39,639 nucleotides of DNA from a virus: positions 1-39,639 of IMG/VR virus record IMGVR_UViG_3300030106_004864. The stretch is one strand, 5' to 3'. The notes beneath the pieces are model-generated. The model did not search any database. It was not told where the DNA came from and was given only the letters and a program-made list of their open reading frames with translations. Positions 5,822 through 39,639 of this stretch are shown piece after piece. How positions within the stretch are numbered: position 1 is the first letter of the stretch; every line of letters starts with the position of its first letter. The translations under genes and the position numbers were made by a program.

Positions 5822-5916
5822 TGCCTAAAATGAAATACAGCTACAAAAAGCCTGGAAAAGCAAAAGCAGCCGCTAAAAAAAGTGGTAAGAAGGTATCTTA
5901 CAGAAAGCGCAAGTAA
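5821..5916 (+). CDS. Tiny basic protein (31 residues)
   Basis: A 31-residue peptide starting MPKMKYSYKKPGK, with nearly half its residues Lys or Arg. It is linked by one-base TAATG overlaps both to the upstream tiny gene and to the portal gene downstream. The precise overlaps and the resemblance to short Lys-rich podophage proteins argue that it is translated despite its size. No function is known. Charge alone would allow nucleic-acid binding or a coupling role. Confidence 0.62.
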   Translation: MPKMKYSYKKPGKAKAAAKKSGKKVSYRKRK

Positions 5917-7946
5917 TGGCGAAAATGGATGACATTGAACTGCACTCAATCGTGCAGGGCGAGATGGAACAGGCTGTCAATTACCACGACACCGAATTTG
6001 CGGCTGATCGCATTGACGCAATGAATTACTACCTGGGCGAACCGCTTGGCAATGAGCGTGATGGTCGAAGCAAGGTAATTCAAACTGAAGTGGCTGATGT
6101 AATTGATGGGATATTGCCCCAACTTGTCAAAATATTTACGACCACTGATGATTTCGTAAAGTTTGAGCCAAGAGGCCCAGAGGACGTTGAGGCTGCAAAA
6201 CAGGCTACGGAATACGTTAATTTTATTTTGAATGCTGATAATGACGGCTGGCTTATTTTTCATCACTGGATGAAAGACGCACTGATTTCAAAGGCTGGTA
6301 TTGTCAAAAGTTATTTCGATGAAAAGGAGATCATCACTGAAGATTCTTATGAGGGTTTAAGCGAAGAAGAATTAACCGCATTGCTCATGGATGAAGAAAT
6401 TGAGATTCTTGAGCAAGAGGCGAGGGAAGTGGGCGAACCTCAGATAACCCCTGATGGTCAAATGATGCCAGCCCCGATGGTCTTTGACATTAAGGTACGA
6501 AAGACCACTAAAGATGGTCGTGTAAAAATCGAGAATATACCACCCGAAGAATTTTTATTTAATCAACGGGCAAAGGATTTAGACGATTGCCGTTTTGTTG
6601 CCCATCGTACCGAAATGACGGTGAGCGACCTTGTAAGCATGGGTTATGACCAAGAAGAAATAGAACGCTATGCGGGGTATACGGAAACCGACACACTCAA
6701 TGAAAAACAGGCACGTTTTCAAGACCTTGAAAGTGCTGTTGGTGATGAATCAGGTGATCCATCCATGCGGGATGTGCTTGTTACCGAAGTTTACATAAAG
6801 ATCGACTACAACAACGATGGCAAGGCTTCAATACGCCGTCTTCTTTGTGTAGGAAGTTCTTATGAGATATTGGAAAACGAGCCTTATTATATGTTTCCGT
6901 TTTCTGTTATTTCACCCATCCTTATGCCTCACAGACTAATCGGGCGAAGTGTTGCCGAACTGGTTATGGATTTGCAGCAAAGCAAGACTGCAATTCTGCG
7001 GCAATGCCTTGACAATCTGTATCTCCAAAATAATGCACGGGTTGGCGTTGTTGAAGGACAGGTCAATATTGATGATGTCATTTCTGCAAGACCGGGTGGT
7101 GTTGTCAGAATGAGAGCGCCGGGAATGGTGCAGCCTCTTACTACACCCAGCGTAGCGGATGGTGCATTTCCGCTTCTTTCTTATATGGATCAAGTGCGTG
7201 AGATGCGTACAGGTTTATCAAAAGCCAGTATGGGTCTTGATCCTGATGCGTTGCAATCCAGCACCGCTACGGCTGTTGCCGCGACCGTCAGTGCAGCGCA
7301 AGCCAAGGTAGAAATGATTGCGCGGGTTTTTGCAGAGACAGGTGTTAAACGCCTTATGAAATGTATTTTGCAACTTGTGCAGAAACATCAGCAACAGCCT
7401 CGCATGGTGCGCTTGAGAAATACTTTTGTGCCGATGGACCCGCAGATGTGGGACAATGAATTTGATGTGAGTGTGAATGTTGGCCTCGGCAATGGCGACG
7501 ATCAGCAAAAAGCGGCGATGCTTGCCCAGGTTGCGGCAAAACAGGAACAGGTCTTGACCCAGATGGGAATGGATAATCCGCTTTGTACAATGGGCCAGTA
7601 TCGAAACACTCTGCAAAGAATGCTGGAAGCCAGCGGTCATAAAGATATTGATAATTATTTTCTTGATCCCGACAATTTGCCGCCGGAACTGCAACAGAAA
7701 ATACAGCAGAAAATGCAAGCGCCACAAAACAACGAGGAACAGCAAAAGCTTCAACTCGAAAAAATGAAAGTTGAGGCTGAATTACAGCTTGCCCGTGAAA
7801 AGATGATGGCTGAACTGGAATTGAAAAAACAGGAAATGGAAATGAAGAACCAGTTGCGGATGAAAGAGATGGAGTTTGAAGCCCAGCTTAGAAGCATCGA
7901 AGCATCATCCGGGACTGATATTTCAACGAACATACCAAGAGCATAG
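5916..7946 (+). CDS. P22-like portal protein
   Basis: A 676-residue portal, the dodecameric ring through which DNA enters and leaves the head. Features typical of P22-like portals are visible. EVADVIDGILPQLVKIF is followed by the conserved DGWLIFHHWMKDALI segment near residue 100. A wing-like acidic region then ends in IENIPPEEFLFN, and FPFSVISPILMPHRLIGRSV lies at about 325-345. The last 90 residues are a Gln/Glu/Lys/Met-rich coiled coil, like the barrel helix of P22 portals. The start is coupled to the preceding tiny gene. Length is close to the 725 residues of P22 gp1. Confidence 0.9.
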   Translation: MAKMDDIELHSIVQGEMEQAVNYHDTEFAADRIDAMNYYLGEPLGNERDGRSKVIQTEVADVIDGILPQLVKIFTTTDDFVKFEPRGPEDVEAAKQATEYVNFILNADNDGWLIFHHWMKDALISKAGIVKSYFDEKEIITEDSYEGLSEEELTALLMDEEIEILEQEAREVGEPQITPDGQMMPAPMVFDIKVRKTTKDGRVKIENIPPEEFLFNQRAKDLDDCRFVAHRTEMTVSDLVSMGYDQEEIERYAGYTETDTLNEKQARFQDLESAVGDESGDPSMRDVLVTEVYIKIDYNNDGKASIRRLLCVGSSYEILENEPYYMFPFSVISPILMPHRLIGRSVAELVMDLQQSKTAILRQCLDNLYLQNNARVGVVEGQVNIDDVISARPGGVVRMRAPGMVQPLTTPSVADGAFPLLSYMDQVREMRTGLSKASMGLDPDALQSSTATAVAATVSAAQAKVEMIARVFAETGVKRLMKCILQLVQKHQQQPRMVRLRNTFVPMDPQMWDNEFDVSVNVGLGNGDDQQKAAMLAQVAAKQEQVLTQMGMDNPLCTMGQYRNTLQRMLEASGHKDIDNYFLDPDNLPPELQQKIQQKMQAPQNNEEQQKLQLEKMKVEAELQLAREKMMAELELKKQEMEMKNQLRMKEMEFEAQLRSIEASSGTDISTNIPRA

Positions 7947-8282: not shown

Positions 8283-9308
8283 ATGGCTGAAGCAACCCTT
8301 GAGAATGGGACTTCATTACTATCACGGGAAGATGCCGTGAATTTACTTCTGGCAAACGATACCCCTGAAGAGGATAAGGTTGAAGTTAGCGAGGAGGCAC
8401 CGTTAGAAGTCGAAGAGACTTCTGATGAGGACACCGAAGCCGATGAGGTAGAGGTCGAAGCGGAAGCAGAAGAATCTGATTCTGAGGAAGTCGAAGAAGA
8501 CGAACCCGAAGAAGAAGAGGAAGCTGAAGAAGCACCCGTAGTTGAAGAACCACAGCGCTACCGCGTCAAAGCTGGCGAGGAAGAGGTTGAGGTTACGCTG
8601 GACGAATTAAGAAATTCGTATATGCGTAATGCAGACTACACCAGGAAAACCCAGCAAGTCGCAGAGGAGCGTAAAGCTGCTGAAGCGGAACTGGAACACC
8701 TGCAAGGCGAACGAAACCGTTACGCCGACCAGCTTGAGACTTTGGAGCAAGCCCTTAGTCAACAGGAGCCACCCCAGGAATATTGGGATAAGCTGTATCA
8801 AGAAAACCCGATGGAATACACTCGGCAAAAAGACCTTGCGCGAGATCGCAAGGATGCTTTGCAGAATATTGAACAGGAGAAACAGAGAGTACAGCAAGAA
8901 CAAATGACGCAACTGCAAGCCCAGGCTGAAAAGCAAATGGCACAGGAGCGTATTAGACTGACCGAATTAATTCCCGAATGGACTGATTCTCAAAAAGCCC
9001 AAGCGGAAAAAAATGAAGTCATTACCTACGCGCAAAGGTATGGATATTCAAATGACGAATTAAGTCGGGTTAGTGATAGCCGTGCAGTCGCTTTGATGAG
9101 GAAAGCAATGTTATATGACAAGCTCATGGAAGCAAAACCAGCGGCAACAAAAAGAACGACCAAGGCTCCGAAAATGACCAAAAGCGGCCAGCCTCAAAGT
9201 AAGAAGCAAAAAACTCAAAGGCGAAGGCGTGATGCCCTCGCGAATATCGGTAAGCAAAAAGGCAGAAATGCAATGGATGCTGCCGTTGATTATCTTCTTA
9301 CTAAATAG
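8283..9308 (+). CDS. Scaffolding protein
   Basis: A 341-residue protein directly upstream of the capsid gene. The N-terminal third is an extremely acidic Glu/Asp/Val run (about residues 30-90). Then comes a motif seen in many phage scaffolds, YRVKAGEEEVEVTLDELRN with YMRNADYTRKTQ (about 92-120). A long Gln/Glu-rich coiled coil (about 120-225) follows, and the Lys-rich C-terminus would contact the capsid protein. This layout is typical of podophage scaffolds that guide procapsid assembly and leave before maturation. A GGAG precedes the ATG at good spacing. Confidence 0.85.
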   Translation: MAEATLENGTSLLSREDAVNLLLANDTPEEDKVEVSEEAPLEVEETSDEDTEADEVEVEAEAEESDSEEVEEDEPEEEEEAEEAPVVEEPQRYRVKAGEEEVEVTLDELRNSYMRNADYTRKTQQVAEERKAAEAELEHLQGERNRYADQLETLEQALSQQEPPQEYWDKLYQENPMEYTRQKDLARDRKDALQNIEQEKQRVQQEQMTQLQAQAEKQMAQERIRLTELIPEWTDSQKAQAEKNEVITYAQRYGYSNDELSRVSDSRAVALMRKAMLYDKLMEAKPAATKRTTKAPKMTKSGQPQSKKQKTQRRRRDALANIGKQKGRNAMDAAVDYLLTK

Positions 9309-9318
9309 GAGGCCAATT

Positions 9319-10792
9319 ATGGCTACATGGACTACTTCTAATGCCATTGGACAGCGCGAGTCGTTATCTGATGTCATTACAAGGATTGACCCAGATGAGA
9401 CACCAATTTTCTCAAATGGGAAAAAAGAAACCACGAAAGCGGTTTTTCACGAATGGCAGGTTTGAAAGAGCCTCGCTAGGCTGCAAAGTCTAGTTGTAAC
9501 TGGGTGAATTGCTGGGAACCCCTACCGAGAAATCGAAGGGCAATCAGCAGCCAAGCCTCGCAAGAGGAAGGTTCAACGGCCATCCCGAAAGGGAGTAGGG
9601 TTAAGTAACCCGAAGCGCCCAGCCCCATATATAATGGGTGAAGATATGGTCTGCTCTGCATAGCATAATATGCAGCAGCCTTTTATAAGGCGAATTAAGA
9701 TTAACGACCTTAATTGAACATAACGTCAAGAGCTTGCCGCTGCTGTTGACACGAACTACGTCAACGAAGGTGCAGATTTTAGTTATGTAAATCCCTCGGC
9801 TACTACAAGACTTGGGAATTACCACCAAATATCTGTGCAAGCAGCACAAGTTTCCGGCACGTTAGATGCAGTAGATGTCGCGGGTCGGGACAAAGAAACG
9901 GCTTATGTTAAAATACTGAAAGGTATTGAACAACGCCGTGACATAGAGAAGGCTCTGTTTAAGAACGAAGCTCGTTCTTCTTCTGATCCTCGTAAGGCTG
10001 GAAAATTCCTGTCTTACATCACTAACATGGAGCTAATCTCAGCTTCAACTACCCCTGCTGGAACTGGCGCAAACGTATCAGACATGGCTGGAACGAATGC
10101 GGCACTAACTCTGGCAAAAATCGACAGTGCTATGAAAATGGCATATGACGATGGTGGACAACCGGACATGATGGTTGTTTCACCAGCAAACAAGGTTGCG
10201 TTTTCTGATTTGTCTAGCGGCAGTGCAGTAACCAACCAATTGCATATGACTGCCAATGCTCCAACCGATGCGATTATAATCGGTTCCGTAAACAAGTATG
10301 CGGCTTAACTAGAGAAATCTGTTTTGAGAATCTGGTGAACTCAGGGAAACTCTGGCAACAGACAATCCTGATCCAAGCCTCTTTTTTAAGAGGAAGGTGC
10401 AACGACCATCCCGAAAGGGAGTAGGCTGGAAGCCCAGCCGAAGCGCCAGACACCCTTATGGGTGATGATATGGTCTGATCTGTACAGGTGCAAGCAATGT
10501 ACAGCAGCGAAAGCGGTCTTAGTTTAGCGAACTAAGGCGAACATAATGATCTATGTATCTTACGGACTTTGGCACGTTGAATGTTGTGATTGATCGTCAA
10601 GCAGCTAACACTGAACTCTTGCTGCTCGACAAAGACCACTACAGTTTAGGCCACTTGCCTGGACGTATGTTCTCGGTAAGCGATGTCGCCCCCGTTGGCG
10701 ATGCTACCCGCTTCTCAATTGTGAGTGAGTGGACGCTTATTATGGACGCTCCAAAAGCACACGCTGCTGTCGTGGATCTTTCAACCACTTAA
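9319..10792 (+). CDS. Major capsid protein, three exons split by two group I introns (316 residues after splicing)
   Basis: Exons are 9319-9461, 9726-10289 and 10549-10792. Joined they give an uninterrupted 316-residue SU10/DUF5309-type capsid protein. Exon 1 ends in the family motif FHEWQ. Splicing gives HEWQV-QELAAAVDTNYVNEGA, and the second junction gives IIIGSV-SMYLTDFGTLNVV, both as expected for the family. Each junction splits a Val codon after its second base (V48 and V236). Unspliced, frame 1 stops at 9463 and exon 2 stops at 10306, so no full-length protein can be made without splicing. AGGAGG precedes the ATG. Scaffold lies upstream and a hairpin downstream. Confidence 0.92.
9462..9725 (+). 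ncRNA. Group I intron 1 in the major capsid gene (264 nt)
   Basis: The 5' exon AGGU pairs with intron GCCU to give P1 with the required U-G pair at the splice site. The intron ends in G at 9725. Core elements are readable. P4 pairs GCTG with CAGC (AATTGCTGGGAA and AATCAGCAGCC). A CCCGAAAGGG GNRA hairpin (P8-like) lies at 9584-9593, and P7 pairs GGCCAT (9578-9583) with ATGGTC (9646-9651). The S-like AAGATATGGTC precedes the 3' domain. No open frame long enough for an endonuclease is present. The arrangement resembles the T4 td type. Confidence 0.9.
10290..10548 (+). ncRNA. Group I intron 2 in the major capsid gene (259 nt)
   Basis: Exon CCGU pairs with intron GCGG (P1, U-G at the site), and the intron ends in G at 10548. 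P4 pairs TCAGG with CCTGA, so both strands differ from intron 1 but stay complementary. P7 pairs GACCAT (10404-10409) with ATGGTC (10470-10475), with the same GAAA-capped hairpin between. It shares with intron 1 the stretch AAGAGGAAGGT, the following core, and the end GAACATAA followed by C or T and then G. The two introns are therefore related. No endonuclease frame is present. Confidence 0.9.
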
Positions 10793-12182: not shown

Positions 12183-12752
12183 ATGGCTGAGATCCACGGC
12201 CCCACTTTAGAGCAGCTAGACGATTGGGGAAATATTGATTCTCTTGATTCCTATGGAAATCTTGAAGACATTGCCAACTGGTCAAGGTTTGAGGCTTCTG
12301 CATCAGCCAGTGTAGCCGTCACCCAGACTAGTGCTTTAACACGCATACAGCCCGTATCCGGCTCTGCAAGTATTGCTTTAACTGAAAGCAGTGCGGTTAT
12401 TCGCTTACGAACTGTTTCTGCTTCAGAAAATATCGCTTTAACTGAAAGCAGCGCGGTTGTTCTAATTCTTTCTGTTTCTGGTTCAGCAAGTGCTGCTATT
12501 ACTGAAAGCAGTGCGGTTAAAAGAATACATTCGGTATCTGGCTCTTCTGATATTGCTATTACTGAAAGCGCAGCAGCTATCATTCTGGTAGGCGTTAGCG
12601 GAACGGCAAATATTACAATAAACGAAAGCAGTGCTGCACAACTGCTATGGAACTTGCCAACAGTTGATGATCCGGCGTTTAGCGTTATCGCTGCTGGCAG
12701 TCATACTTGGACAGAACAGACAACTGATAGTCATACTTGGAGCAACCAGTGA
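12183..12752 (+). CDS. Protein with six tandem 20-residue repeats
   Basis: A 189-residue protein. Residues 39-158 are six tandem 20-residue repeats whose consensus is close to SGSASIAITESSAV plus six variable, mostly hydrophobic or basic residues. Short sequences of this kind predict a beta-solenoid or stacked-sheet rod. The N-terminus (MAEIHGPTLEQLDDWGNID) is unique. The C-terminus carries a doubled SHTW motif (SHTWTEQ, SHTWSNQ). Context between adaptor and tail hub genes suggests a tail or appendage part. I do not recognise a named family. Confidence 0.72.
   Translation: MAEIHGPTLEQLDDWGNIDSLDSYGNLEDIANWSRFEASASASVAVTQTSALTRIQPVSGSASIALTESSAVIRLRTVSASENIALTESSAVVLILSVSGSASAAITESSAVKRIHSVSGSSDIAITESAAAIILVGVSGTANITINESSAAQLLWNLPTVDDPAFSVIAAGSHTWTEQTTDSHTWSNQ
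12297..12656 (+). repeat. 60-bp tandem repeats encoding 20-residue units
   Basis: Six imperfect 60-bp direct repeats lie inside the 12183-12752 gene. The best conserved part encodes ACTGAAAGCAGTGC or close variants (TESSA). Copy-number change by slippage would keep the frame, so the rod length could vary between strains. Confidence 0.85.
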
Positions 12753-15732: not shown

Positions 15733-17211
15733 ATGGATGATTTAGTCAAATACGGATTGTTGGGTGCTGGCGACAAAAAAAACGCTGCATTGATGGCTTT
15801 GTTTAATCTTGGAGCGCAAATAGGAAATCGAAGTGCGCCAAGATTAACACCAACGCCTCCCGCTCTCGATATGTCGAAGGTTATGGGTGTTTATCAGAAC
15901 ACTTTAACAAATGCGATGAAACGCCGCGCTCTTGTAAAGGAACTTGAAGATAGGGAAAAACGGCGTTCATTTTTTGATGCAAAAGCGATTGATCCAGTAG
16001 CAGCAAGCCAGATTGCAATGCGGGGCGGTCTGCAACAAGCACAGTTAGAAAGTCTACTCCCAGAAGGCGCTGTAAATGTAGAAACAGCAAAATATGGTGA
16101 AGAATTATTCCCCGAAGATTTTGCACAATACGACGCACAACGGGCTATGGAAACGGCACCTAATTATTTAAAAGCCGCAGAAGCGCAAACAACGATACCT
16201 TCCCATTTGTCTTTTCTTGATCCAGCAAAAGCTAGAGCCTTGATGGGTCTTGGTAAAATTGATGATAAATTGGGAATGAAAACTTATGCTGATTTACTGA
16301 CAGCAAAACCTTCTGAGTCTTTAAGTTTTGAACAAAAAAAAGAATTAGCTAGATTAAAGGGAGGGATACGCAAAGACCCAACTTCAGTGAGAGAGTTTCG
16401 GTTTGCTAAAAAAAATGGATTCCCTGGAAATTTTGCAGAGTGGGTGAGGTATAAACAACCGTCTTTGCAGCCACTTACCCAAAAAAGAGCGGATCAAAAT
16501 CTAAATATAGAGATGGCGAATGCTGGTTTTACAATTAAAAGGGATAGTCGTGGAAACATTACAAAAGTTGTTCCGATAGAGGGTGGTAAGGTTGATGTTC
16601 AAAAGAAAGAAAAAGAAATACAAAGATTAAAAACAGCTAGTCAAAAAGGCAACACTTCCAGGGTCGCATTACAATCTATAGCTGGTATCGAAAAAATAAT
16701 GAGGGAATCGAAACTTCCTGACTATTTTTTAACAGGAACAGCTTCACGAGCAATATCTTGGGTTTCTGAAACTGATGCTGGAAAACTATTATCCCACGTT
16801 GCTTCTCTAAAAAGTCAAGTGGTACTAGGGACAATGATGAAACTGAAAGAAGCGTCAAAACAAGGTGCTACTGGCTTTGGTCAACTGAACCAAAAGGAAT
16901 TACAAATACTAATAGACAGCATTGGAGCATTAGACCCCAAAAACACAAATTTACAAATATTTAAAGGCACACTTAATAGAGTTAAACATAAATTTATTCA
17001 TGTTTTGATGGGTGTAAAAAAATATCTTACTACGGAAAAAATTAAAGAATTAGGTTTTAGAGATTTAATAAATAAACTGCCAGAGGATCAAGCCATTGAG
17101 GCTGGAAGGGAAGCCTTACGTCGAAACCCAACTAAACTAAAAGAAATTATGAAAAGATTTTCTGATGTAGGTCAATTTATTACTCCAGAAATGTTGGGAG
17201 CACCACAATAA
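15733..17211 (+). CDS. Ejection-type internal virion protein 2
   Basis: A 492-residue, largely helical, Lys/Ala/Leu-rich protein. The ATG at 15733 (MDDLVKYGLLGAGDKKNAAL) begins right after the upstream stop and fits the spacing of the cluster. A start 45 bases upstream would overlap needlessly. The N-terminal 40 residues are amphipathic, and the rest has many charged helices without cysteine motifs or a lysozyme-like catalytic site. It sits between two similar large proteins and overlaps the next start (TAATG). Function is inferred from position and composition. Confidence 0.65.
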   Translation: MDDLVKYGLLGAGDKKNAALMALFNLGAQIGNRSAPRLTPTPPALDMSKVMGVYQNTLTNAMKRRALVKELEDREKRRSFFDAKAIDPVAASQIAMRGGLQQAQLESLLPEGAVNVETAKYGEELFPEDFAQYDAQRAMETAPNYLKAAEAQTTIPSHLSFLDPAKARALMGLGKIDDKLGMKTYADLLTAKPSESLSFEQKKELARLKGGIRKDPTSVREFRFAKKNGFPGNFAEWVRYKQPSLQPLTQKRADQNLNIEMANAGFTIKRDSRGNITKVVPIEGGKVDVQKKEKEIQRLKTASQKGNTSRVALQSIAGIEKIMRESKLPDYFLTGTASRAISWVSETDAGKLLSHVASLKSQVVLGTMMKLKEASKQGATGFGQLNQKELQILIDSIGALDPKNTNLQIFKGTLNRVKHKFIHVLMGVKKYLTTEKIKELGFRDLINKLPEDQAIEAGREALRRNPTKLKEIMKRFSDVGQFITPEMLGAPQ

Positions 17212-18758
17212 TGGCACAAAAAAGACAGCCTAATTTCGATGATCTTTTGCAAGGCGGGACACAAAAAAGACAGCCTAATTTTAATAATCTTACAACGTCA
17301 GACTCAAGCATTGATCCTACAACGTCAGACTCAAGCATTAGTCGTTTGTTGGGTAAATTTTCTCAAGGCGCTTCACCCGTTTTAGCAAGTACCGTTTTAG
17401 GGGCTAAACTCGGAAGTCCGTTAGGGCCAAAAGGAGTGGCGGGCGGTACTGTCCTTGGTAGCACTGTTTTACCACTCGCTGATTTAATAAGTCAGGGGTA
17501 CAATGCAGCGGTTAGAAATTTGGGTTTTCCAAAAGCACAAATTGTTCCGACAAGTAAATACATACAAGGTCTTCTTGGTGACAAACCAAAAACTACCGCT
17601 GAACGTGCAGCTTTGGCTGCGGGAGAAGCATCAGGTATGGTTGGAGGCCAATTGCCTGGATTGTTGAGGCTTTCTCAGGTAGCAGCAAATCCAACTTTAC
17701 GAGGGATTAGTGGAACTCTAGCAACGGCTCCAAAAACTCAAATGGTTGTTGCACCAACGGCGGCTGCAACAAGTCAAGTTGTAACGGAAAAAACAGATAG
17801 TCCGGCGGCTGGTTTAGCATCTTCTATTTTAACAGGATTAGCAATTGGCAAAGCTGGTACACCTCGTTTTAAATTTACAACTGGCGATCAATTAAAAACC
17901 GCCGCGTCAAGATCATATAAAGAGGCTGATAACGCTAATATTGTTTTACCAGAAAATGAAGTTTTACGCCTCAGAGAAAATATTATTAAAACTATAAAAA
18001 AAGAAGGTTACAATGCAAACTTGCACCCAAAAGTAACAAAGGCGTTAAGCATACTTGGACAAGATTCTAAAGATGAAACATTGATGAGCTTAGACCAATT
18101 AAGAAGAGGATTTAGAGATTTAGCAAGGAATCCAGATGAAAGTCGAATTGTCGGTGCTGCTATTGATGCTTTTGACAAACACTTATTAGCTCTTAAACCT
18201 TCATCTTTTAAAATTGGTAATGCTGCAAGTGGCATTACATCTTTAATAAAAGCCCGTGAACTTTGGCAAAGATCAAAAAAAGTCGAAGTGATTGAAGATA
18301 TAATAGCAAATGCAAAGTTGGCGGCTGGCGCAAATTATACACAAGCTGGTTTAGAAACAGCGTTGCGACAACAGTTTAGGGCGCTTGCCAAAAAAAACCC
18401 AGGCAAATCTAGCCCTATTGATCGTTTTAGTGCTGAAGAACAAAAAGCAATAATCAAAATTGTTAAAGGTGGTAAAGGCGAAAATTTAGCAAGAATTATT
18501 GGCAGAATAGCGAGTATTAGAGGCCCAATATCAGCCGTACCAACTATGGTGCCGTTGTATTATGGGGAACCTGTGATTGCCGGAATAATTGCAGCAGCTG
18601 GAGAATCAGCAAGACGAGGTGCTTCTGCTCTTACAAAACGTAATGTAGGAAATTTGAGAAAAACCATAACTGGCGATGTAAAACCACCAAGTAATGTTCG
18701 CCCAGGCGCGATAAGAGGCTTGCTAAGTGATCCTAATATTGGGTCTGAACTTTTTTAA
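17211..18758 (+). CDS. Ejection-type internal virion protein 3 with N-terminal peptide repeats
   Basis: A 515-residue protein. The first 45 residues hold two short duplications: QKRQPNFDDL with QKRQPNFNNL, and two TTSDSSI units. Glycine-rich hydrophobic stretches follow (about 50-95 and 180-215), resembling membrane-active segments of DNA-ejection proteins. Then come a long helical region and a second hydrophobic Gly/Ala segment (about 455-480). It is the last gene before a strong terminator, closing the morphogenesis transcript. The ejection role is inferred. Confidence 0.65.
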   Translation: MAQKRQPNFDDLLQGGTQKRQPNFNNLTTSDSSIDPTTSDSSISRLLGKFSQGASPVLASTVLGAKLGSPLGPKGVAGGTVLGSTVLPLADLISQGYNAAVRNLGFPKAQIVPTSKYIQGLLGDKPKTTAERAALAAGEASGMVGGQLPGLLRLSQVAANPTLRGISGTLATAPKTQMVVAPTAAATSQVVTEKTDSPAAGLASSILTGLAIGKAGTPRFKFTTGDQLKTAASRSYKEADNANIVLPENEVLRLRENIIKTIKKEGYNANLHPKVTKALSILGQDSKDETLMSLDQLRRGFRDLARNPDESRIVGAAIDAFDKHLLALKPSSFKIGNAASGITSLIKARELWQRSKKVEVIEDIIANAKLAAGANYTQAGLETALRQQFRALAKKNPGKSSPIDRFSAEEQKAIIKIVKGGKGENLARIIGRIASIRGPISAVPTMVPLYYGEPVIAGIIAAAGESARRGASALTKRNVGNLRKTITGDVKPPSNVRPGAIRGLLSDPNIGSELF

Positions 18759-25101: not shown

Positions 25102-26376
25102 ATGGGTAAGATCAGTAAAGTAAATTTAAAAAAAGTTGGATATCGAAAAGAACGCAATCGTTATTATGCTCGGTTAGAAAAATTTGGAGGCGGTAAACCT
25201 TTATTTAAAACAGAAGCAGAGGCCGCTAAAGTTTTTGATATTGCTGAAACAGAGTTTGGCAATAAGACCTTTGTTAAAGTCGTTAACGCAAAAACTTTTG
25301 CCGAATGTGCTGGCACTTACGACAAGGACTATTTCCATCAAACAAAAAAGAAAATCTTTGTATCCGGTTTCCTTAGAAAATATCAAACGCAAGGTCACAC
25401 GAAAGGGAGAGTACAACCGAGTATGGTTACAGACAGGTCTAGCCATTTAGAGAATTTAATGAATGTCGATTATATTGATGTTGCTGATGATCTGGTTGGC
25501 AAAGTTCCTTTGAAAAAAATTGGCAATGTAAAGATGGCTGATTTTGAGAGTCTTGATTTGGAAAAATCATTAAATGTTTGGTTTCACAATAACAAAAAGA
25601 TTGGAAGCAAAAGTACCCGCGACAAATATATGCAATCTTTGAAGATGGTTTTTTACTGGGCAATAAAGCAGAAAATTTTAAAATTTGATGTCAGTAAATA
25701 CATTGATCTTGAAGAAATGGATTTTGAGGAACCAGTAAAGCGGCGGGTTCCCAACTCAGAGTTGGATAAAATTGTCGAGCATATAAAAAGTCCCAAATGG
25801 CAACTGATGGTCGAGACGGCAAGTCAGACAGGGTTACGTCCAGGCGAAATAGCAGGGTTGCACTGGAATGAAATTGATTTTGGAGGACATAACGAAACAG
25901 GGGCTCTTGCTGTTATTTATGGAAGGCGAAAAGATGGATCGCTCGGCAGTGGAAAAACAGGTGCAGCACGTCGGGTTGTGCCTCTGTGTGATGATTTAAG
26001 GGATGCCCTGCGGCGGTGGCAAGTTTCTCAGCCAATAGAAGAGAGATCACAAGGACTGGTTTTTCCAAACAGCGTTGGCGCGGTGTGCGATAACACAAAG
26101 TGGAATCGAAAAATAATTACACCAGCGTGTGATAAGGCAGAGGTTGAACGCATAACGATGTATGATCTCAGGCACTACTACGCAAGCACTCTGATTTATG
26201 AAACGACGGCGAAGGACGTGGAAATTCAATATTGGATGGGCCATCACTCCGTTGCTTTCACACAAAAAGTTTATGGTCACTGGTTGAATGATCCACGAAG
26301 AAATAGAACAATAGGTGCCGAATTAAGCAGGGCTGTGGGTTCACGGGCTAAAGACTTAAAAATAGGGAGGGTATAA
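25102..26376 (+). CDS. int: Tyrosine integrase
   Basis: A 424-residue tyrosine recombinase. An N-terminal arm-binding-like part (about 1-65) is followed by a SAM-like core-binding domain (about 145-200) and the catalytic domain. Catalytic residues visible: R246 in TGLRPGEIAG, a likely Lys near 277-285 (RRKDGS), R357 in YDLRHYY, H381 in GHHS and nucleophile Y391 in KVYGH. The first His of the usual HxxR box is Tyr here, which some integrases tolerate. It lies beside attP and would recombine at tRNA-Lys. AAAGGAG sets the start. Confidence 0.92.
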   Translation: MGKISKVNLKKVGYRKERNRYYARLEKFGGGKPLFKTEAEAAKVFDIAETEFGNKTFVKVVNAKTFAECAGTYDKDYFHQTKKKIFVSGFLRKYQTQGHTKGRVQPSMVTDRSSHLENLMNVDYIDVADDLVGKVPLKKIGNVKMADFESLDLEKSLNVWFHNNKKIGSKSTRDKYMQSLKMVFYWAIKQKILKFDVSKYIDLEEMDFEEPVKRRVPNSELDKIVEHIKSPKWQLMVETASQTGLRPGEIAGLHWNEIDFGGHNETGALAVIYGRRKDGSLGSGKTGAARRVVPLCDDLRDALRRWQVSQPIEERSQGLVFPNSVGAVCDNTKWNRKIITPACDKAEVERITMYDLRHYYASTLIYETTAKDVEIQYWMGHHSVAFTQKVYGHWLNDPRRNRTIGAELSRAVGSRAKDLKIGRV

Positions 26377-28312: not shown

Positions 28313-28329
28313 AATTACGAAACGTAATT
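28313..28329. promoter_or_regulatory. Operator palindrome 1
   Basis: AATTACGAAACGTAATT is a 17-bp inverted repeat, perfect except for its unpaired AAA centre. It overlaps the end of the repressor gene and lies immediately upstream of the leftward promoter. The core TTACGAAACGTAA recurs at 29067-29079. A repressor or Cro-like dimer is the likely ligand. Confidence 0.7.
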
Positions 28330-28926
28330 TCCGATGATTACGTGAATAGCCGTAATTTCAGTTTTATCAATCGTAATTTCGGAATCGGGATTGAGTTGAT
28401 GGAGGGTAATTTCTGCATCATCCAGACTTATAAACCTTTTGATGATTGCTGTGATTTCCTCACCTTTTTTCATCTGGACAATAACATCATCCCCTTGCTT
28501 GGGTGGACGACCAGGAGAGGCATAGACAATCTCGCCTTGCTGAAAACGTGGCTGCATTGATGTACCAACGACATAACAGGCATACCCACCTTTATTGTTG
28601 CGAATAGCAGGGTGTGGATTAATAAAGTCAACAGGGCTGGCAACATTAGTCACGTCACTACCCAAACCCGCTTCAGCGCTTCCATATAAAGGTATAGTAA
28701 AGGTTTCGGAATTTGAGGATAAATCGTCTTCTTCAGAAATTCCTAAAACTTCTTCAACGCTGACCGAAAAAACATTTGCGATTCGTTGCGCCAGTTTTAA
28801 GCGTGGTTGTCGTTCTTGTCTTTTATAAGTTCGGAGTGTTGCTGGGTTTATTTCCAGTTGCCGCGCCAACTCTGCCACCGAAATTTCATGTTCAGCGCAC
28901 AGCACACTTATCCTATTCTTTGACAC
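28315..28926 (-). CDS. CI-like phage repressor (HTH + S24 peptidase)
   Basis: A 203-residue repressor. The N-terminal HTH_3 domain (about 5-60) holds ISVAELARQLEINPATLRTY as recognition region. The S24 domain has the predicted autocleavage site A86-G87 in SAEAGLG, nucleophile S123 in GTSMQPRF and general base K163 in AIIKRF. SOS-type, RecA-stimulated self-cleavage is therefore expected, allowing induction. The start is GTG (28926) after GAGGAGGG. It is transcribed leftward, opposite to the Cro-like gene, which is the usual switch layout. Confidence 0.92.
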   Translation of the reverse strand: MSKNRISVLCAEHEISVAELARQLEINPATLRTYKRQERQPRLKLAQRIANVFSVSVEEVLGISEEDDLSSNSETFTIPLYGSAEAGLGSDVTNVASPVDFINPHPAIRNNKGGYACYVVGTSMQPRFQQGEIVYASPGRPPKQGDDVIVQMKKGEEITAIIKRFISLDDAEITLHQLNPDSEITIDKTEITAIHVIIGNYVS

Positions 28927-37140: not shown

Positions 37141-37269
37141 TCACACCCTCCCAAGCGCCGCACTTAGTGCGGTGTCAATCTCAGGTGCAATGAATAGCAA
37201 GGCGTAGAGGATGCAGAACAAGCCAAGCAAGGCGGCGGTTTCTGCTAACATTTTAATGCGGGAGGTCAT
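37141..37269 (-). CDS. Tiny single-span membrane protein (42 residues)
   Basis: A 42-residue protein with a basic N-terminus (MTSRIKMLAET) and one hydrophobic span (AALLGLFCILYALLFIA). GAGGG precedes the ATG, which lies one base below the ArdA stop. The start of an equivalent gene is cut by the left window edge. A membrane role in host takeover or superinfection exclusion is possible but unproven. Confidence 0.62.
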   Translation of the reverse strand: MTSRIKMLAETAALLGLFCILYALLFIAPEIDTALSAALGRV

Positions 37270-37270
37270 G

Positions 37271-37807
37271 CTACACCCTCCCGAAAGCGTGGACGGTATA
37301 GTTAGCACCTTCTGCAAACTCAACGTCACCGTTTATTTTGCAATCGCGCAGAAAGGCTTCAGTGTCAAAATAATAGCGGAGATTTTCCGGAATTTCTGAC
37401 AGCATGCCGCTGCTATCTAACCAATCCTCCATGTATTCAAGTTCGCTGTCATACGTTCCCCAGTATGCGTCATTTATAGCGTCAATTTCAGCGTCAGGGC
37501 TTACGCAATCCCAATACGCTTGCACATATTCGCGCTGGTCGTGTTCAAGGTCCAACCATTCAAAAATTTTATCGTCAAGACCGCCCTCAGAATAAAGGTT
37601 GTTAGGGATACAGTCGCAATCTTGAAACATAAATTCGGGGTCTTTTTCATCAGCGTGCAATTTTTTGCAAGCGGCGTAAAAATCGGCCTTGTCTGTATAA
37701 TCGTCGAGATACAACCAAGCGCCTTTGATGCTGCCTGAGTTATATTTGGCGTATGTTCCAACATATAGCGCTGGTCGTGGTTTTGTGATAGTTGCTAGAT
37801 TATCCAT
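37271..37807 (-). CDS. ardA: ArdA-type anti-restriction protein, right copy
   Basis: A 178-residue acidic ArdA-family protein, the same length as the left copy (13-549) and with the same LYVGTYAKYNSGSIKG signature. It differs from it by many substitutions, for example in residues 30-75. ArdA proteins mimic DNA and block type I restriction. GGAGG precedes the ATG at 37807. Downstream in the same operon follow the membrane protein and the run of small acidic genes. Confidence 0.9.
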   Translation of the reverse strand: MDNLATITKPRPALYVGTYAKYNSGSIKGAWLYLDDYTDKADFYAACKKLHADEKDPEFMFQDCDCIPNNLYSEGGLDDKIFEWLDLEHDQREYVQAYWDCVSPDAEIDAINDAYWGTYDSELEYMEDWLDSSGMLSEIPENLRYYFDTEAFLRDCKINGDVEFAEGANYTVHAFGRV

Positions 37808-37845
37808 TTTTTGATCCTCCATGATCATTTAGTGGTTAGCACTTC

Positions 37846-37867
37846 GGGAGGCGTTCCAGCGCCTCCC
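37846..37867. terminator. Hairpin between small gene and ArdA (right copy)
   Basis: GGGAGGCG (37846-37853) pairs with CGCCTCCC (37860-37867), eight perfect pairs with a 6-nt loop. Compared with the left copy one G-C pair is replaced by A-T and a G-T pair by G-C, so pairing is kept while sequence changes. There is no T tract. Confidence 0.55.
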
Positions 37868-37876
37868 TAGTGCGGT

Positions 37877-38059
37877 TTAAATTTCATTCAGTGCTTTAGC
37901 TTCCGTGTGTGTGTTTGTGTAGCCTAGAACTTTGTAAAGTGGCGAACCCCAAACATGGTTTAAATCGTAATCTTTCCAAATTTCACGCTTTCCCAATTTT
38001 GGGCCTTGCACAAATTCAATTGCGATAAAGTAAGGTTTACACTTTCTTCTTTTAGCCAT
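37877..38059 (-). CDS. Small phage protein of unknown function, right-copy version
   Basis: A 60-residue basic protein (MAKRRKCKPYFIAIEFVQGP), beta-rich, with LGKREIWKDYDLNHVWGSPL, ending in TEAKALNEI. It is unrelated in its body to the gene in the same place of the left copy (617-808), though the last codons are alike. It starts in a TAATG overlap with the SprT-like stop and has GGAGGTGA as ribosome site. Function unknown. Confidence 0.65.
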   Translation of the reverse strand: MAKRRKCKPYFIAIEFVQGPKLGKREIWKDYDLNHVWGSPLYKVLGYTNTHTEAKALNEI

Positions 38060-38634
38060 TATTTCACCTCCATAGGCTGATGGTTGCATGGGCAAATTGT
38101 CGGTCCATAATTTGTGATATTTGTTTTGGTTGTCCGCGCAATGTAACCGCATGAATTGCACTCCATCTTGACCATGCGAGTGCCTTGCTTTTTGCGCTTG
38201 TTTATATCAAGTGCGGCGTGCGGGTATTTACCCAATTTTTCAATTATGGGAGTTACGTCACGTTTAAACGCATCGCTTGGGCGCGTTTCGGTCATTTTGC
38301 CAGTTAACCCGATAGCAAGCGCCGTTTTCCGAAATTTAGGGCCGTGCCCTGCTGCGATGCCTTCGATAGCGTGGATCATTTCATGGGCAAGAATTGCCAA
38401 CACTTCCAGCGGCTCATCTTGCGACATACTGATAAGCATTTCCGATGTTTCATCACTTGACGCGCTAGGATCAAAACATTGCCCAATAGTGCCAGCCTTG
38501 CCCTTTCCGCTTGCACGGCTAGACGGCCAAGAACAACTAACACGCCATTTTTTGGGTAATGATTTATTGAGGGGGTGAAATAAAGCGGCTTCCATTCTAA
38601 GCGCCGCCTCTGTGAGCCATGTTTCTCTATTCAT
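38059..38634 (-). CDS. SprT-like zinc metallopeptidase domain protein, right copy
   Basis: A 191-residue SprT-like protein with HEMIH at residues 84-88 (E85 as catalytic base), H97 as likely third ligand and the CxxC plus CxC zinc ribbon at the end. It is highly similar to the left copy at 808-1383 apart from scattered substitutions. A frame extension upstream belongs to the preceding small membrane gene. The ATG at 38634 follows GGGAG. Members cut DNA-bound proteins, and the phage role is unknown. Confidence 0.85.
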   Translation of the reverse strand: MNRETWLTEAALRMEAALFHPLNKSLPKKWRVSCSWPSSRASGKGKAGTIGQCFDPSASSDETSEMLISMSQDEPLEVLAILAHEMIHAIEGIAAGHGPKFRKTALAIGLTGKMTETRPSDAFKRDVTPIIEKLGKYPHAALDINKRKKQGTRMVKMECNSCGYIARTTKTNITNYGPTICPCNHQPMEVK

Positions 38635-38635
38635 G

Positions 38636-38815
38636 CTAACAATCTCCCAACCAAGCGCCAAGAGCGCCAACGCCACAAAAGGCATTGGCGATCATTCCAA
38701 GTTGTAAAATGGGGTTGCTATGAATTTCGGCGTTATAACCAACAATGGCTACCAGCCCTATAATATTAAGAGAAAAACAAAGGATTGCTAAATTTTTGGC
38801 TATTGTTTTCATCAT
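38636..38815 (-). CDS. Small two-span membrane protein, present only in the right copy
   Basis: A 59-residue protein with two hydrophobic stretches (IAKNLAILCFSLNIIGLVAI, then MIANAFCGVGALGAWLG) separated by a short polar loop. AGAGG lies before tandem ATGs at 38815 and 38812. It ends one base before the SprT-like gene. In the left copy the SprT-like gene is the first gene and this one is missing, so it is an insertion or deletion between the copies. Function unknown. Confidence 0.6.
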   Translation of the reverse strand: MMKTIAKNLAILCFSLNIIGLVAIVGYNAEIHSNPILQLGMIANAFCGVGALGAWLGDC

Positions 38816-38966
38816 TTTTTTACCTCTTTTTGAGTCGGCACAATTACCGTATCGTTAATATGGGGCAATGACATAACAAAGTAAAGTAAAAAATGACGAA
38901 AAATTAATTTTTTTTAATTTAATTGTTGCCGCGAGCCCTAAAAGGTGACTTAATTCCTTAAAATAG

Positions 38967-38988
38967 AGCGCTTTAGCGCTTTTTTTAT
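38967..38988 (+). terminator. Hairpin with T tract upstream of small terminase (right copy)
   Basis: AGCGCTTTAGCGCT followed by Ts. The stem is the same as in the left copy (1525-1550) but the loop differs, so the hairpin itself seems to be kept. It ends about 15 bases before the small terminase ATG. Confidence 0.55.
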
Positions 38989-39003
38989 GCGTGTATATAT
39001 AAA

Positions 39004-39495
39004 ATGACGAAACATAATTCCAAATTGACAATAAAACAGGAAAAATTCGCTCGGCAGTATGTTGGGCCTTGCGACGGTAACGCTAGCGCCGCCTACCGAG
39101 CGGTCTATAATGCCAAAAATATGAGTGACAATGTTGTTCATGTGAAAGCCTGTGAACTGTTGAAAAACGGTAAGGTGTCGGTAATGGTGGAAGAACTAAA
39201 AGCGCTTAATGCTGAGGCACAAGCTATAACAATTGAGGAAATAACGGGCGGACTGCGGCGCGTCGCGGCAGCGGCTAGCGGCGCGGGTCAGCATTCGGCT
39301 GCGGCGCAAGCATTGGTTGCGTTGGCAAAATTGGGCGGTTTAATGGTCGAAAAACGCGCAGTTTCAGTGGATGATACTAGGCAGCATTTAGATGCGGTGG
39401 CAGAGTTGGCGACAACACCAACAGAACCAGAGAAAACGCCAAAAATTGTACCAAAACCGGAACCGAACGTGGAACCAAGCCACGTAACCCATTGA
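39004..39495 (+). CDS. terS: Terminase small subunit, right copy
   Basis: A 163-residue small terminase, same length as 1563-2054 and with the same LTIKQEKFARQYV and GNASAAYRA motifs. It carries many synonymous and some amino-acid changes, especially in the Pro/Glu-rich tail. Such a pattern shows two diverged functional alleles rather than an exact repeat. No ribosome site is visible before the ATG, as in the left copy. Downstream sequence becomes nearly identical to the left copy at the stop codon. The large terminase would follow outside the window. Confidence 0.85.
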   Translation: MTKHNSKLTIKQEKFARQYVGPCDGNASAAYRAVYNAKNMSDNVVHVKACELLKNGKVSVMVEELKALNAEAQAITIEEITGGLRRVAAAASGAGQHSAAAQALVALAKLGGLMVEKRAVSVDDTRQHLDAVAELATTPTEPEKTPKIVPKPEPNVEPSHVTH

Positions 39496-39639
39496 TTTTA
39501 TTAACTTAACCAACTGATTAGTTATCTGTACCGCTCTATCTCTCCAGCGGTATTTGGGGGCGAAAACTTTATTTTCCCCGTGCTTTTTGTTTTTGCCCCC
39601 CCCTTTTTTTTTGATGGGGGGCGGATTTTATTTACACCC
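39485..39639. repeat. Right-end block nearly identical to 2044-2200
   Basis: About 155 bases match the left block with one visible difference, a T run of 9 instead of 10. It holds the same C, T and G homopolymers and no gene. The window ends inside it. This is what one expects when an assembly of a circular or circularly permuted genome returns to its start, or at a second, tandem phage copy. Confidence 0.75.

Follow-up and report, generated by a model that had tools for sequence, protein, structure and literature searches.

Two IA-like group I introns in the major capsid gene of an SU10-type phage

The interrupted gene and its spliced protein

The major capsid gene of an SU10-type phage is interrupted, with a probability that we put at roughly 93%, by two separately acquired, self-splicing group I introns of IA-like class. 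The gene occupies positions 9319-10792 of the IMG/VR virus record IMGVR_UViG_3300030106_004864, a stretch of 39,639 bp from a phage described as marine, which is called the window throughout. No open reading frame (ORF) spans the gene, and the longest ORFs holding its pieces encode 78, 157 and 79 amino acids, in keeping with the first-pass annotation of this DNA, in which the capsid frame was broken twice. When 9462-9725 (264 nt) and 10290-10548 (259 nt) are taken out, as that annotation had proposed, a frame of 316 amino acids is open from 9319 to 10792. The parts of the gene, with the evidence for each, are:

9319-9461, plus strand: capsid exon 1, codons 1-47 and two bases of codon 48 (SU10_MCP match, splice-site search, empty sites)
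9462-9725, plus strand: group I intron 1, 264 nt, IA-like (RF00028 at 72.9 bits, splice-site search, covariation, fold z score -3.9)
9726-10289, plus strand: capsid exon 2, 564 nt (spliced frame, SU10_MCP match, splice-site search)
10290-10548, plus strand: group I intron 2, 259 nt, IA-like (RF00028 at 71.6 bits, splice-site search, fold z score -3.8)
10549-10792, plus strand: capsid exon 3 including the stop codon (spliced frame, SU10_MCP match, splice-site search)

The restored protein belongs to the SU10/DUF5309-type capsids, as had been supposed. The Pfam family SU10_MCP matches it over nearly the full length (1.9e-66; residues 7-313 on profile positions 5-291 of 292), and the solved capsid proteins 9ny2 and 7z45 are similar to it. 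The peptides HEWQVQELAAAV and IIGSVSMYLTDF run across its exon junctions, and intronless relatives reach up to 87% amino-acid identity with it. Once the introns are removed the exons contain neither stop nor frameshift. Exon-wise NG86 values against the relative L003 gave, for exon 3, a nonsynonymous divergence (dN) of 0.11 and a synonymous divergence (dS) of 1.9, which indicates that the capsid protein is conserved; dS was saturated in exons 1 and 2.

Splice sites and empty sites

Both inserts match the Rfam group I intron model RF00028 along its full length, at 9452-9675 (72.9 bits, E 8.6e-17) and 10280-10504 (71.6 bits, E 2.2e-16), above the gathering score of 50 bits, and the group I identity first read from the letters alone is thus confirmed. 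A permissive scan of the window found no further introns. In order to avoid fitting the boundaries already proposed, splice sites were searched independently, requiring an exon end U with a U.G pair in P1, an intron end G and an open frame, and scoring the products by a capsid hidden Markov model. The best boundaries were exactly 9462-9725 and 10290-10548, about 10-12 bits above any alternative. Intron 1 is inserted at residue 48, phase 2 (EWQV^QELA), and intron 2 at residue 236, phase 2 (IIGSV^SMYL). The P1 U.G pair at the 5' splice site (AGGU/GCCU in intron 1, CCGU/GCGG in intron 2) and the terminal G (9725 and 10548), both of which had been noticed earlier, are borne out by this search.

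9458-9461, plus strand: 5' strand of P1, intron 1, AGGU, whose final U forms the 5' splice-site U.G pair
9463-9465, plus strand: in-frame TGA, met one codon past the splice site if intron 1 is retained
9470-9473, plus strand: 3' strand of P1 (internal guide sequence), intron 1, GCCU (sequence, splice-site search)
10286-10289, plus strand: 5' strand of P1, intron 2, CCGU (sequence, splice-site search)
10300-10303, plus strand: 3' strand of P1, intron 2, GCGG (sequence, splice-site search)

The empty sites are well represented. At the DNA level 22 distinct intronless relatives cross junction 1 without a gap and 21 cross junction 2. The exact exon junctions, sought in viral contigs, were found in two contigs for junction 1 (L400, a 66-87% relative, and a contig already seen as L009/L244) and in none for junction 2.

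Intron fold and class

A structural alignment of 15 related introns contained 91.9% paired cells, versus 74% when shuffled and less than 44% when slid. Of its 65 pairs, 39 show compensatory changes, and its covariation score is 0.51, versus 0.16 for shuffled alignments. P3, P4, P6 and P7 are paired in 15/15 introns, in agreement with the P4 and P7 pairings annotated at first, and all core helices are intact in both window introns, each of which folds better than 200/200 of its shuffles (z -3.9 for intron 1 and -3.8 for intron 2). One assignment had to be corrected: the GAAA-capped hairpin CCCGAAAGGG, which had been taken for P8, is P7.1, since it lies between the 5' strand of P7 and the 3' strand of P3. 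The P8 of intron 2 is CACCCUUAUGGGUG; the elements of intron 1 are:

9578-9583, plus strand: 5' strand of P7, GGCCAU, pairing with 9646-9651 (paired in 15/15 related introns)
9584-9593, plus strand: P7.1 hairpin, GAAA-capped CCCGAAAGGG, between the P7 5' and P3 3' strands (copy in intron 2)
9598-9611, plus strand: P7.2 hairpin, GGGUUAAGUAACCC (compensatory changes versus intron 2 and relatives)
9624-9638, plus strand: P8 hairpin, CCCAUAUAUAAUGGG (RF00028 match, fold)

Both introns have P7.1 and P7.2 between the P7 5' strand and the P3 3' strand, the arrangement of class IA (IA2-like), and judged by this feature alone both are IA-like. No endonuclease gene was found within them, their 264 and 259 nt being broken by several stop codons that leave no open frame long enough to be useful, nor among the scanned ORFs of the window. 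Neither is therefore a mobile intron in the sense of one that encloses a homing endonuclease gene.

The intron family in SU10-type capsid genes

Viral contigs were scanned by two routes, one for the core motif of the intron and one for relatives of the capsid, and exons and introns were then mapped, the insertion sites of L106, L117, L175, L247, L250, L251, L320, L086, L120, L147, L152, L154 and L184 being set by hand. The SU10-type capsid gene, of about 950 bp, proved to have 26 distinct mapped insertion sites, between residues 9 and 293 in the numbering of the window. Among gene clusters formed at 95% DNA identity, 66 have no intron, 20 have one, 14 two, one three and two four; in two internal-exon capsid-protein searches at least one intron was carried by 8/33 and 6/42 clusters (about 19%). 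All introns of the richest examples pass the Rfam cut-off, namely 4/4 in L089 (355-2314), 4/4 in L147 (minus strand) and 3/3 in L086 (314-2014). The early remark that two introns in one phage capsid gene are unusual was right as to the two introns and needs tempering as to their rarity: relatives carry up to four, and a five-fragment capsid gene has been published for crAss-like phages (see below).

Site 1 of the window is also occupied in L247, and site 2 in L123 (from a Tara Red Sea metagenome-assembled genome), L260 and L271/L282-L284. L085 and its relatives have an intron one base off site 1, which branches elsewhere in the intron tree. The contig L087 represents the same virus as the window (99.98%) and is not an independent case. 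Intron sites lie in better-conserved protein segments (2.89 versus 2.52 bits; 0/5,000 random sets as high, the sites being not fully independent). Residues 117-235, in exon 2, comprising 38% of the gene and its least conserved segment, contain 0/26 mapped sites; a gap of this kind would have a probability of 5e-6 with uniform and independent sites, two capsid queries were biased towards contigs uninterrupted there, and the gap, partly a sampling effect, is reported as a lead only.

The prediction that such a gene escapes simple gene finders has a case in GenBank. L122:4001-5202 corresponds to Phage C72C1 (OQ984150.1, 8530-9731). There the annotation shows the intron-split capsid gene as two separate 'major head protein' pieces and adds three hypothetical genes that run on the other strand.

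Intron ancestry

A tree built from 57 capsid introns sorts them by insertion site, with 25 site-label changes (minimum 24, shuffled mean 46), and window intron 2 clusters with other site-2 introns (support 99/96). The two window introns have separate ancestries: sisterhood is rejected by the approximately unbiased (AU) test (p = 1.5e-6), and two separate acquisitions are hence probable. L247 has an intron at the same nucleotide as window intron 1; these two stand apart in the tree, but a constraint to one lineage is not rejected (p = 0.16). Related introns also occupy different sites of one gene, as sisters at sites 20 and 51 of L147 and as the groups at sites 25 and 61, of which L175 has both, which implies that movement to new sites within the capsid gene does occur.

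Other hosts of the family

Two motif scans that did not select for gene provide a sample of hosts, and the counts that follow are of the matches listed. At least 34 of at least 128 intron clusters lie in SU10-type capsid genes. Of the at least 143 exon fragments flanking the remaining clusters, capsid families are the commonest among the matches listed: Phage_capsid_3 (at least 13), Phage_capsid_4 (at least 6), Phage_capsid_2 (at least 5), Gp10A-like (at least 4) and P22 coat (at least 3), with some overlap, ahead of DNA polymerase A (at least 9) and ribonucleotide reductase (at least 2-5). Introns of the family in other capsid families (L088, L097, L099, L100, L102, L112, L093, L160, L171 and L238) fall in Phage_capsid_2, Phage_capsid_3/4, Gp10A-like and phrog_9953 genes. 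Some members of the family have an HNH or GIY-YIG endonuclease. At L093:4162-4939 the intron core is followed by an HNH_3 homing-endonuclease domain, and the gene in which they lie resembles the capsid gene of L102; an endonuclease-bearing member of this type may provide the homing of ORF-less introns.

Proposed mechanism and alternatives

In the late mRNA each intron would fold into a P3-P9 ribozyme core, with the short P1 ending in U.G aligning the 5' splice site. A guanosine bound at P7 would cut the 5' splice site and the exons would then be joined after the terminal G, so that two splicing events would give a continuous message of 316 codons, on which capsid production would depend. The most likely source of the introns would be relatives that bear them, through homing or recombination, and precise splicing may let them persist as near-neutral elements. 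As to the route of movement, homing or coconversion with endonuclease-bearing relatives would be the conservative account, and reverse splicing into the abundant capsid mRNA is a possible one. Three points weigh against the reading as a whole: that splicing occurs, and how efficiently, we infer from established group I biochemistry; a simple count gives P1 just 4 bp in either intron; and a spliced or intronless copy of the same virus was not found, the sole near-identical contig, L087, having both introns.

A more far-reaching proposal would make them part of a lineage of small introns, mostly endonuclease-free and specialised on phage major capsid genes of unrelated families, which would spread among sites in these genes by reverse splicing into the most abundant late mRNA followed by copying into DNA. 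It would explain the many sites, the several introns per gene, the related introns at different sites and the concentration in conserved segments, and we consider it unlikely; reverse splicing as a means of intron spread has in general no direct experimental support (PMC3984707). P1 targets shared by related introns that sit at different places, such as CCGU in window intron 2 and L097, were considered as evidence of reverse splicing and set aside, because any insertion must match P1 in order to splice.

The introns could instead have been selected as regulators that delay capsid synthesis or tune it to the state of the cell. That several lineages have two to four introns in a single highly expressed gene, and that capsid genes are the commonest recognised host class among the matches listed, would agree with such a role, which is nevertheless improbable given that close relatives are mostly intronless and that 26 widely varying positions and a patchy presence are what mobile elements would show. 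There is a slimmer chance that the introns are decayed or splice poorly and that the gene is a dying copy. The short P1 helices speak for decay; the intact core helices, the canonical ends and the still conserved exons, free of stops and frameshifts, speak against it, and Pfam finds no second capsid-family gene among the larger ORFs of the window that could be the working copy, the PHROG match of the ORF at 17211-18758 being weaker (5.8e-17). Recent duplication of one intron within the gene, to which the good alignment of the two introns and the within-gene spread in L147 lend some colour, was rejected by the AU test and is very improbable, the nearest relatives of intron 2 being same-site introns of other phages. 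That the inserts are an assembly artefact has a negligible probability: an imperfect direct repeat of about 2.2 kb at the window ends (84-93%) may reflect merged variants, but L087 agrees with the window at all but one of 6,104 bp, both introns included, the site-2 intron recurs at the same nucleotide in the Tara Red Sea genome and other contigs, and the inserts fold as catalytic introns. Two separately acquired group I introns that splice themselves from a working capsid gene account best for the data.

Other features of the window

The capsid gene follows the portal and scaffold genes, its expected location for the SU10 type.

5916-7946, plus strand: SU10-type portal protein gene (PF23899, SU10_portal, 7.9e-219)
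8283-9308, plus strand: head scaffolding protein gene, directly upstream of the capsid gene (phrog_3927, 1.1e-58)

The ORF at 17211-18758, whose PHROG match is to 'major head protein', has no Pfam match. In the virion structural gene region an internal repeat of about 142 bp (12368-12569, 74% identity) has its copies offset by 60 bp. The repeat at the window ends (2-2199 and about 37260-39639) duplicates a terminase small-subunit gene and a SprT-like/phrog_6361 gene, and represents perhaps merged strain variants or a real duplication. The phage is probably temperate, as suggested by integrase, S24/helix-turn-helix repressor and ArdA antirestriction genes (25102-26376; 28315-28926, minus strand; 37271-37828, minus strand). 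A palindromic segment at 542-616 has sub-threshold matches to SymR (41.8 bits, cut-off 61) and R1162 antisense RNA on opposite strands.

Significance and comparison with known systems

The capsid protein is among the products that a phage needs most, so that a gene for it with two to four introns should depend on highly efficient splicing and make a strong test of the cost of self-splicing introns. With 26 sites, sister introns at different sites and several capsid families, the arrival of endonuclease-free introns becomes directly testable. SU10-type capsid genes have been repeatedly invaded by introns that gene finders easily miss, and capsid genes used in classifying uncultivated viruses can be fragmented in annotations, OQ984150 being one GenBank case. 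In the open-access literature searched, no description was found of introns that mostly lack an endonuclease and occupy so many sites of SU10-type capsid genes.

The placement of P7.1 and P7.2 between P7 and P3 is that of the T4 td-type IA2 introns, whose hosts are nucleotide metabolism genes. These features of class IA2 are named in PMC3984707. Multi-intron phage capsid genes are already known: in crAss-like phages of the Delta and Zeta groups group I introns lie in the capsid gene, one gene being in five fragments (PMC7886860). The window shares with them the intron-bearing major capsid gene and differs in its inserts, which are introns of about 250 nt without endonuclease genes, the phage itself being smaller and its capsid of the SU10 type. 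In mycobacteriophages, splicing of the LittleE capsid intron and the BAKA tail intron, the latter of 265 bp without an endonuclease gene, was demonstrated by reverse-transcription PCR, and for LittleE also by N-terminal protein sequence (PMC3706429); beside LittleE, Tuc2009 is cited there for a single capsid intron. There too a structural gene is interrupted by a group I intron, unlike the window with one intron per gene, in different phages and, for LittleE, in an HK97-type capsid. Two group I introns in one phage gene, as here, are cited in PMC8541194 for Twort, where the gene is a different one, encoding ribonucleotide reductase. In fungal ribosomal DNA group I introns are spread over many sites and reverse splicing has been inferred (PMC1299323); the likeness is that one conserved and highly expressed gene holds related introns at several positions, and the difference lies in the host, a protein gene here and ribosomal RNA genes in fungi. 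Phage group I introns are usually said to favour genes of nucleotide and DNA metabolism (PMC12350094), whereas in the lineage of the window introns capsid genes are the commonest recognised host among the matches listed.
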